Shown one piece after another: positions 1 through 13,589 of a stretch of 36,564 bases of DNA (positions are counted from its first letter, which is position 1; each line of letters begins with the position of its first letter). The stretch is from positions 361-36,924 of the IMG/VR virus record IMGVR_UViG_3300030328_001285. The stretch is one strand, 5' to 3'. Made by a program: the position numbers and the translations under genes. This DNA comes from a virus. The notes beneath the pieces were generated by a model that was not told the origin of the DNA, searched no databases, and worked only from the letters and a program-made list of their open reading frames with translations.

Positions 1-410
1 TCAGATGGGATTTCTGCTGGAACTGCATTAGTCTGTATTACATTCCAGTCATCATCTCTCTCATGAGATAATGAATAGCACTCCCATGTATGATCTAATG
101 TGAAGATGTAAGCATACTCTTCACCACCATCAAAATAATCATCCACATTTAAGTCTAAACGTGGCTCTGTGTTCTCTCCACGTGCATTATAGTATAATAC
201 ATGAGGTTCACAATCATTTCTATCCCAATCTGTATCAGAATCACAGCATGAAATGTTCCCACCATCAATTAGCTCAGCAACCTTATCTCTTGTGTTAAAC
301 TTTGCCTTAAGAGTAACACCTAACCACTGTGGATAGCCATCCCAGTGATGATAGACTGATAAAATAGCACCATCAGCAAGTTGTAGTCCAATCCTTGATC
401 TTGTTGCCAT
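1..410 (-). CDS. Hypothetical protein, truncated at the left edge
   Basis: The start codon is at 410 and 136 codons are visible before the gene runs off the window. I do not recognise a catalytic family. The protein is acidic in its second half, with DSDTDWDRND near residue 56 and a DVDD-type stretch near residue 84, and is rich in Trp, Tyr and His (for example VYHHWDGYPQW near residues 19-29). It looks like a small soluble protein of the type conserved as 'hypothetical' in marine T4-like phages (from memory, not searched). There is no Shine-Dalgarno sequence directly before the ATG, only a T-rich run. Upstream lies the hairpin-rich spacer 411-656, which may govern its expression. Confidence 0.75.
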   Translation of the reverse strand, partial: MATRSRIGLQLADGAILSVYHHWDGYPQWLGVTLKAKFNTRDKVAELIDGGNISCCDSDTDWDRNDCEPHVLYYNARGENTEPRLDLNVDDYFDGGEEYAYIFTLDHTWECYSLSHERDDDWNVIQTNAVPAEIPS

Positions 411-650
411 TTAAAAAAGGGAATAAAAAACACGTGGGATGTTAGTTCTTTCTTCGGTTGCGAACCGAGAGGCACATCCATCTCCTCGTACAGGACTTAC
501 AGGACGTAATTTCTCAACTGAATTGAGACAACCATAGATCCTTGCCTAAATGGTGAGAGAAAACAAAACTGAGGGGACAGTTGCATTACCTTGACATCAT
601 GTGACTGCTTCTAAGTCAGTCTAGTCAGGAACCTCGTTTGTTTTCCCATG
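411..650 (-). ncRNA. Candidate structured RNA / 5' leader
   Basis: This 246-base spacer between two minus-strand genes folds unusually well. A 14-bp stem joins 559-574 to 632-645 (two single-base bulges). Inside it, 589-595 pairs with 624-629, and inside that 603-607 pairs with 617-621. Further on, 512-517 pairs with 523-528. 437-442 (GGATGT) pairs with 474-479 (ACATCC) around a perfect hairpin 454-459/463-468 (TCGGTT/AACCGA), followed on the minus strand by a T6 run. TACAGGAC is directly repeated at 489-496 and 498-505. Strand is assumed from the flanking genes and from a TATAAT box at 656-661. I could not match it to a known riboswitch, and a tRNA reading fails. It could be a stand-alone RNA or a leader of the gene starting at 410. 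Confidence 0.35.
442..477 (-). CDS. Possible 11-residue leader peptide (MCLSVRNRRKN)
   Basis: On the minus strand a strong GAGGAG Shine-Dalgarno (482-487) lies four bases before ATG 477-475, opening a very short frame that ends with TAA at 444-442. The frame spans the hairpin 454-468, so translation would melt it, as in attenuation-type leaders. The peptide is basic. An overlapping frame starting at 481 reads on into the next gene in another phase and is less plausible. No protein family can be assigned. Confidence 0.25.
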   Translation of the reverse strand: MCLSVRNRRKN

Positions 651-655
651 TGCTT

Positions 656-661
656 ATTATA
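656..661 (-). promoter_or_regulatory. TATAAT -10 box before the structured spacer
   Basis: An exact TATAAT on the minus strand overlaps the stop codon of the methyltransferase gene. Initiation about seven bases downstream (near 649) would start the transcript immediately before the 5' arm of the 14-bp stem at 645. No good -35 hexamer is present at 16-18 bp, so the call rests on the -10 box and its position only. Confidence 0.35.
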
Positions 662-1625
662 GTACATCCATCAATGGATTCCACTTCTCTTGTGACAGTT
701 CTTCAACTGCCTCCTTAGCAATCCTAATTGCGTCAGGATTCACGTCACATGTGATACAATTTCTATCTAGGTTCAAGGATGCTAGTGCAGTTGTGCCTGA
801 TCCACAAAACGGATCAAGTACCCAGCCATCAGGTGGACAAGAGGATTTAATGATTCTCTCAAGCAGTTTAAGGGGTTTCTGAGTAGGATATTTCCTCTTA
901 TTCTTCTCACTCCTTGATATGAAATACACATCATCCCAGAAGTTTTGAACTGGAACTCCCTTAGACTCATGTGAATAGATCTTTTTATAGAGCATATTCT
1001 TACCATAATGTAGTAAGTCCTGATCGTCTAGTGCTTTGAGTTTCTCTCTTGTTATTCTAAATCCATACTCAGGATTATATCCTTTATAATCAAACCTAGC
1101 ACATGGCCTACTCTTCTCTCCTGTAACTTTTGCTAGTGCATAGAAACCTACCTCATCCTTATTCTTAAAACTATTTGCTTCATAAATTGGATCTAGTGAT
1201 GTATATTCAACATCAAAGTAAGGGTTGCCCTTTTGAATTACCATGATAGAATCTACTATGTTTCCCCATCCATTCTTAATATTATTCTTAGGCCCTGATC
1301 TCTTCCATGATATATTTGTATAGAAATTCTTACGGATCTCATCAGTTACTTTAGATAATACTAGAGCATTACCAATGAAATTATTATGTAAGTACATCCA
1401 TCCATTCTTATTCAACTTATGATATGCCTGTATAATAATATTTGCATACCATATAATATAATCATCAAATGAATCCCATTGATCGGCAAATCCCTTCTCT
1501 TCTCCATCTTTCTCGACCATAGTGAAATCACGTTGCAATCCGAAAGGTGGATCCATGTATATTACATCAAAGTTCTTATCAATTTCATTAATTTTCTCGG
1601 CAGGTTTATCAAGTATCTCAATCAT
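657..1625 (-). CDS. DNA methyltransferase, beta-class (N6-adenine/N4-cytosine)
   Basis: This 322-residue protein has catalytic motif IV near the N-terminus (MDPPFG, residues 24-29) and the SAM-binding motif I near the C-terminus (DPFCGSGTT, 271-279). This permuted order defines the beta class of amino-methyltransferases. DPPF is more typical of N6-adenine than N4-cytosine enzymes, so adenine methylation is likelier. It would transfer a methyl group from SAM to phage or host DNA, for example to protect phage DNA or alter regulation. The start ATG (1625) overlaps the end of the apt gene by eight bases, and it is the last gene of the coupled operon halogenase-apt-methyltransferase. No restriction enzyme lies beside it. 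The target sequence cannot be read from the protein by eye. Confidence 0.88.
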   Translation of the reverse strand: MIEILDKPAEKINEIDKNFDVIYMDPPFGLQRDFTMVEKDGEEKGFADQWDSFDDYIIWYANIIIQAYHKLNKNGWMYLHNNFIGNALVLSKVTDEIRKNFYTNISWKRSGPKNNIKNGWGNIVDSIMVIQKGNPYFDVEYTSLDPIYEANSFKNKDEVGFYALAKVTGEKSRPCARFDYKGYNPEYGFRITREKLKALDDQDLLHYGKNMLYKKIYSHESKGVPVQNFWDDVYFISRSEKNKRKYPTQKPLKLLERIIKSSCPPDGWVLDPFCGSGTTALASLNLDRNCITCDVNPDAIRIAKEAVEELSQEKWNPLMDVL

Positions 1626-2154
1626 AAGTAATTAAAGATTTAATAGGTACATTCTTTTGAAGATTATCTCTTCCATTCAATCCATTCAATTCTATAATGA
1701 ATCCATACCCCATTATATCACCACCTGCTCTGTTTATCAAGTTAGTGGCCGCTCTCGCAGTCCCACCAGTAGCAAGTAAATCATCTAGTACTAATACTCT
1801 CGCTTGGTATGATACCACTCCCAATGCACCCATATCAAATACATTAGATTGTACCTCTAAGGTATCAGTACCATACTCTAACTCGTACTCTTCAGATTCT
1901 ATTTTTCCTGGTAATTTTCCCTTCTTTCTAATGGGTACAAACCCAATGTTTTTTATAGTTGCTAATGCAGTACCAACAATAAAACCACGTGATTCAATAC
2001 CTACGATAAGATCAGGCCTTACCTCATCACAAAACTCACCCAACTCCTTCATCACCTGAGCCCATCCTTCAGGGTTCTTTAGTAAAGGCATTACATCCTT
2101 AAAGTTTATCCCCTTCTTAGGAAAATCAGGGTATTCATCAATGTAGTGTTTCAT
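1618..2154 (-). CDS. apt: Adenine phosphoribosyltransferase
   Basis: This protein converts adenine and PRPP to AMP and pyrophosphate. At 178 residues it has the length of bacterial Apt and aligns by eye over most of it: DYP/GINFKDV near residues 8-21, VGIESRGF (51-58), VPIRKKGKLPG (73-83), EYGTD (93-97) and the PRPP-binding loop VLVLDDLLATGGTARAA (120-136). All the expected signature residues of the PRPP loop (DD and TGGT) are present, so it should be active. Its ATG lies inside the stop region of the halogenase-like gene (4-base overlap), which indicates translational coupling. In a phage it may recycle adenine from degraded host nucleic acid or from SAM/SAH breakdown. The second role fits its methyltransferase neighbour but is inference. 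Confidence 0.92.
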   Translation of the reverse strand: MKHYIDEYPDFPKKGINFKDVMPLLKNPEGWAQVMKELGEFCDEVRPDLIVGIESRGFIVGTALATIKNIGFVPIRKKGKLPGKIESEEYELEYGTDTLEVQSNVFDMGALGVVSYQARVLVLDDLLATGGTARAATNLINRAGGDIMGYGFIIELNGLNGRDNLQKNVPIKSLITYD

Positions 2155-3722
2155 CCAAGAGATCCTCCAGTTCCACGCATTTGTCTTTGGTCATCCAAAA
2201 TTTTATCCCTAGACTCACCATCAGTATCTAATATTCTTTCATCTAATGAAGGTTTATATTTCAATGCTTCAAGATGTGGCATTGCTTCTTTATTATCTTG
2301 TTTCATTCTCTGTAGTCTCTCAATTAATGCTCTTCTCCATGCTCTATTATCAAAGTATGTCTTGGCAGGAACATCATCCATTAATTGATGTAACCATATA
2401 GCCCAGTTATTACCACCAAAGAATCCATGTCTCAATACTTTATATGTTGGATAGGATGGATCTCTAATAGAATCCTCCATCATTTTTTGGAATCCACATT
2501 TCTTAAATGTCTTTCTTACATGATCCCAAAATGGACTCTGAATATGTGAGTAGTCATAGTGCATACTAACAAAATCTACCGCACTCTCATAGTCTTGCTC
2601 CATCTTCATATTATAATGTTTTATATCCATCCAATCATAACATCCACCTAATGCACAATCTTCTAATAGTTCTATTCCACCAATAATAAAAGCAATTCCA
2701 GTGCTTTCTAATGGTTCAATGAATCCAGCAGATAGGCCAATGTTAACTACATTACCTTCCCAACACTTATCAACTCTAACAGGATCCCAATGTATAGTTC
2801 TCAAATCTTCCTTCTTAATTCTACCATTCCAATGCTTAACAAGACTTTCCTTAGCATCATCTATTTCAGTAATATGTCTATTAAATACATGACCTGATCC
2901 TATTCTGCTAGTCAATGGTGTCTCCCATATCCATCCATGATCGGTTGCAGTTGCAGTTGTGTATGGATGTAACTCCTCTTCCTTATCAATGTACTCTACT
3001 CTTGTAGCTACAGCAGTATCTACAAATAATCTATCACTAAGATCAATGATCTTTCTATTTGGTGATAACAGTCTCTTAAATCCAGTACAATCAATGAATA
3101 AATCTGACTCAATCGTATCACCATTATCCAATTCTAATGATGTTATATCATCTCCTTCCCAATTTATATTATTAACAGTTGAATTGATGTATGTAAATCC
3201 TTCTGACTCCTTAATATGTCTCATTAAGAACTCAACATACTTACCACAATCTAATTGCTCAGAGTATCCTACAAGTTCCTTTATCTGTACTCTATTATCC
3301 TTCAGAGACGGATAAAAATATAATGTAGATGGATAATCAATATCAGGATTTGCAGTAAGTACATCACCAAATGGTATTGTAAATTCATGACCATCTGATG
3401 TTTTAGTATGAAAGTGGAAGTGGCCAAATGGGTGAAATATTGTTTTACCACCTTTACCCCAGTTAGGATAGAAGATACCACCCTTATAAGTAGCATCCAC
3501 TTCCTCCATCCACTCAGTAGGATCACTAAAACCACAATATTGCATAAACTTATTGAAGTTTAAAAGATTGGCTTCTCCTACTCCTATTCTCTCAGGTACT
3601 TCTTTATCAATTAAAGTTATACGTGCATGATGAAAAGCAGCTGCTCTTCTGACTAACCATGTAGCAGTCATCCAACCAGCTGTTCCACCACCAACTATAG
3701 TGATCTCTTTTACTTTTTTCAT
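2151..3722 (-). CDS. Flavin-dependent tryptophan-halogenase-like protein 1
   Basis: This 523-residue protein has the full length and layout of the Trp_halogenase family. The FAD-binding GGGTAGW is at residues 11-17. A lysine at 80 (ATYKGGIFYPNW) is at the place of the catalytic Lys79 of PrnA/RebH. DLFIDCTGF is at 207-215. GWIWETP (263-269) replaces the family's usual WxWxIP motif. EPLESTG (336-342) carries the conserved Glu-Ser pair (E339, S340). Halogenases of this fold use FADH2, O2 and halide to make hypohalous acid and chlorinate indoles or other aromatics. The substrate here is unknown and need not be tryptophan. It leads the coupled operon with apt and the methyltransferase, and a TATAAT box sits just upstream. 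A second, divergent copy is encoded at 14127-15671. Confidence 0.85.
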   Translation of the reverse strand: MKKVKEITIVGGGTAGWMTATWLVRRAAAFHHARITLIDKEVPERIGVGEANLLNFNKFMQYCGFSDPTEWMEEVDATYKGGIFYPNWGKGGKTIFHPFGHFHFHTKTSDGHEFTIPFGDVLTANPDIDYPSTLYFYPSLKDNRVQIKELVGYSEQLDCGKYVEFLMRHIKESEGFTYINSTVNNINWEGDDITSLELDNGDTIESDLFIDCTGFKRLLSPNRKIIDLSDRLFVDTAVATRVEYIDKEEELHPYTTATATDHGWIWETPLTSRIGSGHVFNRHITEIDDAKESLVKHWNGRIKKEDLRTIHWDPVRVDKCWEGNVVNIGLSAGFIEPLESTGIAFIIGGIELLEDCALGGCYDWMDIKHYNMKMEQDYESAVDFVSMHYDYSHIQSPFWDHVRKTFKKCGFQKMMEDSIRDPSYPTYKVLRHGFFGGNNWAIWLHQLMDDVPAKTYFDNRAWRRALIERLQRMKQDNKEAMPHLEALKYKPSLDERILDTDGESRDKILDDQRQMRGTGGSLG

Positions 3723-4686: not shown

Positions 4687-4819
4687 TTTTAGTTTGCTTT
4701 TTCAATTTTTTAAGTTGTTTCTTTATCATCTTAGCATAATACACTTCCCTTTCACTGTATAGTTCTGGGTGTTTCTTGGCTCGTTTAATAATAAGTTTTG
4801 CTGCTTTCTTGTCGTTCAT
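4652..4819 (-). CDS. Small basic helical protein (55 aa)
   Basis: This 55-residue, lysine-rich protein (AAKLIIKRAKKHPELYSEREV near the N-terminus, then a run of KKQLKKLKKQ) is probably one helix with a strongly basic face, so it could bind nucleic acid or an acidic partner. It is the first gene after a terminator (4867-4894) and a CATAAATA late-type promoter (4849-4856), and overlaps the next gene by 35 bases. Confidence 0.65.
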   Translation of the reverse strand: MNDKKAAKLIIKRAKKHPELYSEREVYYAKMIKKQLKKLKKQTKNDSGLTQDKSE

Positions 4820-4848
4820 TCCTTACATAGGCAAAATACATGAAAGGC

Positions 4849-4856
4849 TATTTATG
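4849..4856 (-). promoter_or_regulatory. T4-type late promoter CATAAATA
   Basis: On the minus strand CATAAATA, matching NATAAATA, the T4-like late consensus read by gp55-type sigma, lies 29 bases before ATG 4819. It follows directly after a terminator, the arrangement expected for a new transcription unit of three overlapping small genes. Confidence 0.55.
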
Positions 4857-4866
4857 CTACCAATAT

Positions 4867-4894
4867 AAAACCCCTCAACTGAAAAGTCAAGGGG
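4867..4894 (-). terminator. Rho-independent terminator
   Basis: On the minus strand CCCCTTGAC pairs with GTTGAGGGG (9 bp including two G-U pairs, 6-base loop) and is followed by TTTT. It would end transcripts from the gene at 4974-5132. The bases between it and that gene (4895-4973) hold nothing I can identify. Confidence 0.65.
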
Positions 4895-4973
4895 TGTGAT
4901 TATTGATTGAATTTACTTAAGGTGGATGTTGAAATTTGGTCATTTGTCTGTTAAAATTAAACGTGTACTCGTT

Positions 4974-6682: not shown

Positions 6683-6882
6683 TTCTTTTTTAATTCTTTT
6701 TTTATGTAGGTTAAAGCACAATCATAGTTCCTAGATGTGTGGAGCCATTCACCATTATGAATGATAGCAAATTTCCTACTACCCATACATGGAATAGCGG
6801 CCCACATACCATCCTTAGTAACATACCCCTGCTTATTCTTTATCGCATCCTTATAGAATGTTTGATAATTAGAATTTCGCAT
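6679..6882 (-). CDS. Small hypothetical protein (67 aa)
   Basis: This 67-residue basic protein has a beta-rich middle (DGMWAAIPCMGSRKFAIIHNG) and a lysine-rich end (YIKKELKKK). Its start overlaps the end of the 46-residue gene upstream by 14 bases. No family recognised. Confidence 0.68.
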   Translation of the reverse strand: MRNSNYQTFYKDAIKNKQGYVTKDGMWAAIPCMGSRKFAIIHNGEWLHTSRNYDCALTYIKKELKKK

Positions 6883-7009
6883 TTACACCAATTACTCTTG
6901 CATTAGGATTTCTTGCTAGTGCAACTTTTCTTGCTTCATCATAGTTGCGAGCATTTACTTCCTCAGTGAATACTGTACCAGCAACGTACAATTTAACTTC
7001 GCACTTCAT
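6869..7009 (-). CDS. Small hypothetical protein (46 aa)
   Basis: This 46-residue frame (MKCEVKLYVAGTVFTEEVNA, then RNYDEARKVALARNPNARV) has an AGAGGA Shine-Dalgarno seven bases upstream. The beta-strand/helix/beta-strand pattern is typical of a tiny protein seen in many cyanophages (recall). It is the first gene of the string 7009-5256 and sits 26 bases downstream of a TATAAT box. Confidence 0.7.
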   Translation of the reverse strand: MKCEVKLYVAGTVFTEEVNARNYDEARKVALARNPNARVIGVNAKF

Positions 7010-7034
7010 GAGATTCCTCTTTTGGTATGTACAT

Positions 7035-7063
7035 ATTATATACTAAAAAGAGGGGTCTTACAA
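7035..7063 (-). promoter_or_regulatory. Sigma70-like promoter, TATAAT with TTGTAA
   Basis: TATAAT (7035-7040) with TTGTAA (7058-7063) at exactly 17 bp lies before ATG 7009. The -35 element is inside the loop and right arm of the terminator 7045-7071, so terminator and promoter overlap. The extended box TATAATATGTACA is repeated identically at 11812-11824. Confidence 0.5.
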
Positions 7064-7071
7064 CCCCTCTT
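7045..7071 (-). terminator. Rho-independent terminator after the ParB-like gene
   Basis: AAGAGGGGT and ACCCCTCTT form a perfect 9-bp stem with a 6-base loop, followed on the minus strand by TTTTT. It ends transcription of the gene at 7107-8090. It belongs to a repeated module (TGTCACAAG, hairpin, T-run, TATAATATGTACA) that also occurs at 11812-11859. Confidence 0.8.
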
Positions 7072-7106
7072 GTGACACTTGTTAATGTGGATTAAATACT
7101 TGCTTT

Positions 7107-9935: not shown

Positions 9936-10177
9936 TTTGTTTGTTGAGATACGATTGCCTGTAACTTACCATCCTTATCGACAGTAATGTTTATTTGATG
10001 TTGTAAATCATTATCAGTATCCATGAGTCTAATGTCTATTGCACCACCATCCCCATAATATGAGAGTAGTAACCTATTAGATTCTACTTCCCATTTTGGT
10101 GGGTTCTTACCATGTTTATATACAGGATTTGAGTGCTTATCCTCATATCCATTGATCCACTTAAACTGTCCGATCAT
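9932..10177 (-). CDS. Small hypothetical protein (81 aa)
   Basis: I start at ATG 10177 (MIGQFKWINGYEDKHSNPVY); AAGAGGG lies right before it. A TTG at 10198 would add seven residues. The protein is beta-rich (WEVESNRLLLSYYGDGGAIDIRL). No family recognised. The start overlaps the nucleotidyltransferase gene, and the end overlaps the possible nuclease gene by four bases. Confidence 0.62.
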   Translation of the reverse strand: MIGQFKWINGYEDKHSNPVYKHGKNPPKWEVESNRLLLSYYGDGGAIDIRLMDTDNDLQHQINITVDKDGKLQAIVSQQTK

Positions 10178-13271: not shown

Positions 13272-13294
13272 TGGATAGATAGTTATGGTACAAT
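13265..13294 (+). promoter_or_regulatory. Possible promoter of the plus-strand island
   Basis: TACAAT (13289-13294) lies on the plus strand, with a poor -35 (TTTGCA, 13265-13270, 18 bp). It is only seven bases before ATG 13302, which would make the transcript almost leaderless. The first plus-strand gene has no Shine-Dalgarno sequence, which fits. The evidence is weak. Confidence 0.3.
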
Positions 13295-13301
13295 AATTAA
13301 C

Positions 13302-13589
13302 ATGAGAAATATAATAAAAGAATCAATTTACCATTTAAAGGTAGAAACAGGATGGACGTATTGGTATCATCTTAAACACTCTATACATAACTCTCGTAAG
13401 TTAATTACAATCTCATTTAAGAGTATTGTTCATGGATTACTACCATTTATATGGAAAGCAGATGCTCCTAAAGATGTAATCCGATTATACCATGAAATTA
13501 TGAAAATAGAACATATCCGAAAAATGGATAAACTAAAACAACTCCCAAAGAATGAAAGATACAGCAACACTACTGACCCTACTGAATAG
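13302..13589 (+). CDS. DUF6356-like small membrane-associated protein
   Basis: I start at ATG 13302; the open frame extends upstream to 13215 but that part overlaps the divergent gene. The 95-residue protein has the pattern of the DUF6356 family. This is H-x-K-VETGWTYWYHLKHSI (about 10-27), a hydrophobic ITISFKSIVHGLLPFIW (33-49) that could sit in or on the membrane, then DVIRLYHEIMKIEHIRKMDKL (54-74). The function of the family is unknown to me. It overlaps the next gene by 38 bases and opens the only plus-strand operon. Confidence 0.6.
   Translation: MRNIIKESIYHLKVETGWTYWYHLKHSIHNSRKLITISFKSIVHGLLPFIWKADAPKDVIRLYHEIMKIEHIRKMDKLKQLPKNERYSNTTDPTE

Follow-up and report, generated by a model that had tools for sequence, protein, structure and literature searches.

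A putative modular 5′ leader RNA with a sequence-variable palindrome upstream of the T4-GC66 gene of a marine cyanophage

What is carried by the 246-base spacer (positions 411 to 656) that lies between a methyltransferase gene (657 to 1625) and the T4-GC66 gene (3 to 410), both on the minus strand, in a viral contig (G000; 36.9 kb) related to the P-SSM2-type cyanophages? The window analyzed here is a 36,564-nucleotide stretch of this virus record. An initial annotation had proposed that the spacer is a candidate new structured RNA or a riboswitch-like leader, and all of the features that it named were found at their coordinates. The features of the locus, with those obtained by comparison with relatives, are as follows.

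3 to 410, minus strand: downstream gene T4-GC66 (phrog_1987), with its ATG at 408 to 410
411 to 430, minus strand: U-rich spacer up to the start codon (base composition of 106 copies)
411 to 649, minus strand: whole leader RNA (conserved DNA), its start at about 647 to 650 being inferred from the position of the -10 box
431 to 436, no strand assigned: palindrome CACGTG directly after module C, a strict 6-nt palindrome in relatives
437 to 487, minus strand: module C, with helix GGAUGU/ACAUCC (474-479/437-442), putative pseudoknot GAGG/CCUC (484-487/469-472), a hairpin (454-468), and an A-rich strand
493 to 547, minus strand: module B, a conserved rod with a UUCAG loop (covariation and module contexts)
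552 to 647, minus strand: module A, with stems P1 (632-647/557-574), P2 (624-629/589-595), and P3 (617-621/603-607)
582 to 589 and 597 to 602, minus strand: conserved stretches of module A, GTAATGCA and ACATGA, respectively
656 to 661, minus strand: -10 box TATAAT of the leader promoter (from the sequence), overlapping the last codons of the methyltransferase gene
657 to 1625, minus strand: upstream gene for an N6/N4 DNA methyltransferase (T4-GC65; Pfam PF01555, E = 3.9e-41)
678 to 683, minus strand: weak -35-like hexamer TGGAAT (TTGAAT in relatives; weak by itself), upstream of the -10 box with 16 nt between them

The nested stems (589-595/624-629 and 603-607/617-621), the hairpin at 512 to 528, the GGATGT/ACATCC pairing (437-442/474-479) around a TCGGTT/AACCGA hairpin, the T6 run (425 to 430, minus strand), the direct repeat TACAGGAC (489 to 496 and 498 to 505), and the ATTATA/TATAAT motif (656 to 661) were all present in the sequence. 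The long stem, described as 14 bp, was likewise present and spans 557-574/632-647, but its pairing is interrupted by one or two bulges. The initial annotation had overlooked the palindrome CACGTG (431 to 436), the division into three modules, and the pseudoknot that module C may form (484-487 with 469-472). Because CACGTG lies between ACATCC and the T run, the latter is not an ordinary terminator tail; T6 was rejected as an intrinsic terminator given that the hexamer separates the stem from the U run.

The leader DNA was 79 to 86% conserved in alignments with P-SSM2, P-SSM5, and the single-cell viral genomes AG-345-L05, AG-345-F15, and AG-345-E02. In the folding of both strands, suggested with the original proposal, the energy of the whole spacer was unremarkable (minus strand, z = -0.84; plus strand, z = -0.81), whereas the stems assessed by comparison were far beyond chance. 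Single modules reached z values of -1.2 to -1.85 on the minus strand. Folding energy alone is thus no proof of structure, and it is the comparison across relatives that demonstrates the structure described here.

For module A, the unbiased count came from a sequence-anchored set (36 copies, 16 distinct; 12 of 48 matches could not be anchored and were left out). Stems P2 and P3 were paired in 169 of the 172 cells (98.3%) of this set, compared with a mean of 73% and a maximum of 84% in shuffles. A larger set of 69 copies, preselected for pairing, was 98.3% paired versus 74.4% when shuffled and 33 to 46% when slid, and 11 of 12 pairs in this set had changed on both sides. P1 occurs as several unrelated sequences, the arms of which paired with an energy of -16.3 kcal/mol with their own partners versus -8.9 kcal/mol when swapped between P1 classes; one class (GTGGTTC) paired poorly in the stretch tested. 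Regarding module B (48 distinct copies), 97.7% of the cells were paired, and double changes were present in 62 cells versus 18.4 in shuffles. The changes in the C hairpin were also compensatory. The GGAUGU/ACAUCC and GAGG/CCUC helices were invariant, so the pseudoknot is possible, being consistent with the alignment but unproven by covariation. Compensatory changes, which the initial annotation had named as support for its proposal, were therefore abundant within the scope of the covariation test (modules A, B, and C only). Across the A and B helices read on the minus strand, G·U pairs numbered 259 versus 18 A·C mismatches; this excess identifies the minus strand as the sense strand and speaks for RNA.

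A perfect TATAAT ended 7 to 9 nt before P1 in 32 of 47 distinct A-type leaders (exactly 9 nt in 27), compared with perfect matches at 37 of 2,000 random positions. Given this near-fixed spacing, the transcript should begin at the foot of P1.

The other end of the leader is anchored at a gene. An open reading frame of at least 30 aa started 21 to 29 nt (or 7 nt and, once, 61 nt) after module C in 104 of 110 distinct copies. C was the last module of the leader in every case, and no tested module was found between C and the ATG in 95 leaders. The 12 nt located 3′ of the palindrome were 58% T and 4% G (106 copies). Promoter, conserved structure, and start codon thus lie on the same strand, as in a structured cis-acting 5′ leader. 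The genes downstream of C belonged to 16 unrelated protein families; the same gene was found with differing leaders, and the same leader was found with differing genes. A GC66 gene without such a leader exists in S-SSM4, so the RNA is not tied to GC66.

Scanning viral contigs for the patterns of B and of C yielded 91 stretches each; in these loci, A, B, and C were arranged in many combinations, in one orientation throughout. Module B was found on its own, ahead of C, or placed precisely within the loop of P3 in A (L029, L052, and L110), and the loop of A hosted dozens of differing inserts. Clustering of intergenic segments yielded further recurrent modules (e.g., GGGGTTCAGGTGTAAGCGATTCCC..., 87 loci; AACTGCTGCAACCCCC..., 24 loci). 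At most one copy of B, C, or the GGGGTTCAGG module was present in nearly all records of 25 to 250 kb; some loci had two copies of B or C. All three modules were detected in P-SSM2 and P-SSM5, only A was detected in P-SSM7 and S-SSM4, and the AG-345 genomes are also carriers. A second modular leader precedes the next gene, which encodes a T4-GC67-type small protein, in both P-SSM2 and the window's own contig. The modules were found only in phage contigs, mostly of the marine cyanophage type; a search of cellular genomes returned one match in 84,980 species, in an Aquificota MAG outside the host group, which was taken as chance. On comparative evidence, these data show conserved, covarying modules, predicted to fold separately, that have been recombined between genes and genomes, with C last near the ATG and followed by the palindromic hexamer.

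This hexamer, directly 3′ of C, was a strict 6-nt palindrome in 109 of the 110 distinct copies and took seven forms (GCTAGC, 54 copies; CACGTG, 19; CCTAGG, 14; CTATAG, 12; CCATGG, 8; TCTAGA, 1; GCATGC, 1); the sole exception reads CCTTAGG. A random hexamer is expected to be palindromic in 1 of 64 cases, and palindromes were found at neighboring offsets in 0 to 23 of 106 copies versus 105 of 106 at this position. All three pairs of the palindrome change among copies. The hexamer was not repeated in the flanks (0 occurrences versus 1.7 expected over 250 nt upstream and 0.2 over 150 nt downstream), leaving no identical partner in cis; pairing with a cis copy was rejected on this basis. Pairing of the palindrome with the RNA 5′ end, as seen in the fold of the window, was also set aside as not general, since relatives with the same 5′ end carry other palindromes (as judged by eye). 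Within a single chain, pairing between adjacent bases is impossible, and covariation within the palindrome therefore points to pairing between two molecules. Such covariation has been used as evidence of intermolecular pairing in the OLE and GOLLD RNAs (PMC12286853). The hexamer varies, remains self-complementary, and lacks a cis partner, as would a palindrome in an RNA homodimer. Module C may thus homodimerize the RNA via the palindrome, an inference made without dimerization data. Short self-complementary stretches beside a structured RNA mediate homodimers at the retroviral dimerization initiation site and at the 3′ palindrome of the hatchet ribozyme (PMC7357161), and the present arrangement is similar, although dimerization has not been shown here. 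The retroviral palindrome is located in an apical loop, whereas that of C directly follows a helix.

No known family accounted for the element. The Rfam 15 search of the whole window at the gathering score returned no match (including wcaG, manA, glnA, PhotoRC, abiF, GOLLD, ROOL, riboswitches, and ribozymes). Nothing besides a chance SNORD96 match was found in region 300 to 800 at E values of up to 10, none was found in 16 related loci except a tRNA, and none was found in another leader at E values of up to 5; ARAGORN gave no tRNA or tmRNA match. The description of the spacer as riboswitch-like found no support: no known aptamer matched, and the protein families downstream of the element numbered 16 and were unrelated, in contrast to the functionally related genes expected of a riboswitch. 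This distribution argues against a metabolite-specific switch; there are no ligand-binding data. In H-type pseudoknot riboswitches of the preQ1 type, a short helix is combined with another helix that is completed by a strand lying beyond an A-rich stretch. In its putative fold, module C resembles them in this respect but differs in its lack of an Rfam match, its other conserved residues, its inserted covarying hairpin, and its mutually unrelated downstream genes. The closest analogs in position are wcaG (RF01761) and manA (RF01745), which are structured RNAs in presumed 5′ untranslated regions of T4-like cyanophage genes and marine metagenomes (PMC2864571). The leader described here shares this setting; unlike these RNAs, it is built of interchangeable modules with a variable palindrome, and it had no Rfam match even at E values of up to 10 (300 to 800). 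It is also similar to GOLLD, ROOL, and OLE as a large multidomain RNA (GOLLD and ROOL being from phages or prophages) with palindromic contacts, here inferred, that covary between copies (PMC12286853). It differs from them in its unrelated sequence and structure (Rfam) and in its mRNA-leader position directly before start codons. The proposal of a new structured RNA or leader was thus supported by the compensatory changes, the promoter-to-start-codon position, and the absence of an Rfam family.

We propose, with moderate confidence, that in a Salacisavirus-like (P-SSM2-related) cyanophage the spacer forms the 5′ leader of the T4-GC66 mRNA, structured, modular, and proximal to the promoter, with C possibly homodimerizing; no transcript, probing, or dimerization data are available. 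Under this proposal, a sigma70-type promoter belonging to the leader itself would drive its transcription on the minus strand, and the promoter-proximal stem is inferred to protect the mRNA 5′ end. Module C would act in cis on the translation start or on mRNA stability, two leaders could pair via their palindromes, stacked on the GGAUGU/ACAUCC helix, and phages would swap modules by homologous recombination. A cis action of the leader on its gene is most likely, although this is inferred without expression data. Several points weigh against this explanation. With about one copy per genome, C-bearing leaders would be an odd form of general translation device; certain other leaders extend for about 800 nt before a 42-aa gene, which is long for a mere untranslated region; and the palindrome could be a DNA site instead.

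A serious rival, which we regard as possible but unlikely, is that the modules act in trans as domains displayed on a scaffold RNA, serving as decoys for host factors (e.g., defense proteins) or as their inhibitors, the gene being only cotranscribed. Each module is usually present once per genome and is exchanged as a unit, one module can be inserted within the loop of a second (B inside A), and A appears as a platform for dozens of loop inserts, all of which would suit such domains. DNA methyltransferases adjoin, and one downstream family is annotated as anti-restriction. The locking of C to start codons fits a cis role better, no target is known, and no such element was found in cellular genomes apart from the single match outside the host group. 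An extension that we offer as speculation and consider rather unlikely is that marine cyanophages hold a combinatorial library of swapped RNA domains on early mRNAs, which homodimerize by a per-locus palindrome. Each domain would engage a different host factor, and the domains would constitute exchangeable host-interaction (e.g., counterdefense) RNAs. Regardless of their role, the viruses that infect the most abundant photosynthetic cells carry at least three covarying RNA modules that are new and lack an Rfam entry, and the RNA domains are seen to recombine and to nest as whole units. By varying in sequence yet staying palindromic, the hexamer gives a sharp and testable indication that the RNA of a phage mRNA leader pairs between molecules, and cultured phages carry the element (P-SSM2 and P-SSM5, and module A in P-SSM7 and S-SSM4).

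The movement of the leaders invites comparison with promoter early stem-loops (PeSLs; Arbiol 2010, Comeau 2014), which reportedly consist of a short promoter plus a terminator stem-loop. The present cassettes are similarly intergenic and promoter bearing, common to unrelated small genes, and shuffled between phages, thus corresponding to the shared cassettes before unrelated genes in T4-type phages. They differ from PeSLs so described in having a covarying leader of 240 to 800 nt between promoter and gene. A terminator and promoter were found upstream in many copies, yet the structured part here is downstream of the promoter. The terminator (CCCCT..AGGGG-T6) immediately followed by a TATAAT promoter formed a unit in 42 loci (e.g., L035, L036, L044, and L119). 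The cassettes might therefore be mainly recombination joints between small genes, the RNA structure being secondary, and the recurrence of this unit, the exchange of leaders between genes and of genes between leaders, and the report that PeSLs shuffle genes in T4-like phages (PMC4503421) all agree with this. Recombination requires neither strong covariation nor long conserved unpaired stretches, and we consider this explanation distinctly unlikely. Judged from sequence, we rate the element as one that would work like a structured leader, moves like a PeSL, and matches no known family.

The main alternative to RNA-RNA pairing at the palindrome is a dimeric DNA-binding protein. More generally, the hexamer would be a DNA-level site, i.e., the target of a dimeric regulator, nuclease, or methylase. 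The palindromes are strictly Watson-Crick, with no G·U versions among 110 copies, which favors such a site. Seven sequences at one position are unlike the target of a single sequence-specific protein, however, and the hexamer abuts an RNA helix and is always in the sense orientation before a gene, making a DNA site quite improbable in our assessment. Translation of C, as a gene extension (MDVPLGSQPKKELTS...) or a short upstream reading frame (MCL...KN), is scarcely credible and was rejected: an AGGAG motif and ATGs are present and in some phages (e.g., L063 and L072) no stop separates the frame from GC66, but 7 of 29 variants of the longer frame are interrupted by a stop, the L276 copy is one base shorter, and the changes track base pairing rather than codons.

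Several further observations were made in the course of the analysis. The GC66 frame is open through C (MDVPLGSQPKKELTS...) in L063:2416-2928 and L072:2311-2823, so that automated gene calls may wrongly count RNA sequence as part of the protein. In S-SSM4 (L274:1260-1514), module A is followed by an unannotated basic open reading frame of 40 codons and then by a tRNA-Val gene. In the second modular leader of the window's own contig, just outside position 1 of the window at about 60 to 330 of G000:C1 (L300, minus strand), a TATATT box and several other recurrent modules accompany a small T4-GC67-type gene. In AG-345-F15 (L004, about 2800 to 3610, minus strand), approximately 800 nt of apparently structured sequence with several modules inside extend from a TATAAT promoter to a 42-aa gene. 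The methyltransferase gene is adjoined by genes for a tryptophan halogenase (2151 to 3722) and a phosphoribosyltransferase (1618 to 2154). Further long gaps between open reading frames in the window were located at 6722 to 7106, 4687 to 4973, 9936 to 10160, and 13272 to 13551, and the first three of these are kept in related contigs.
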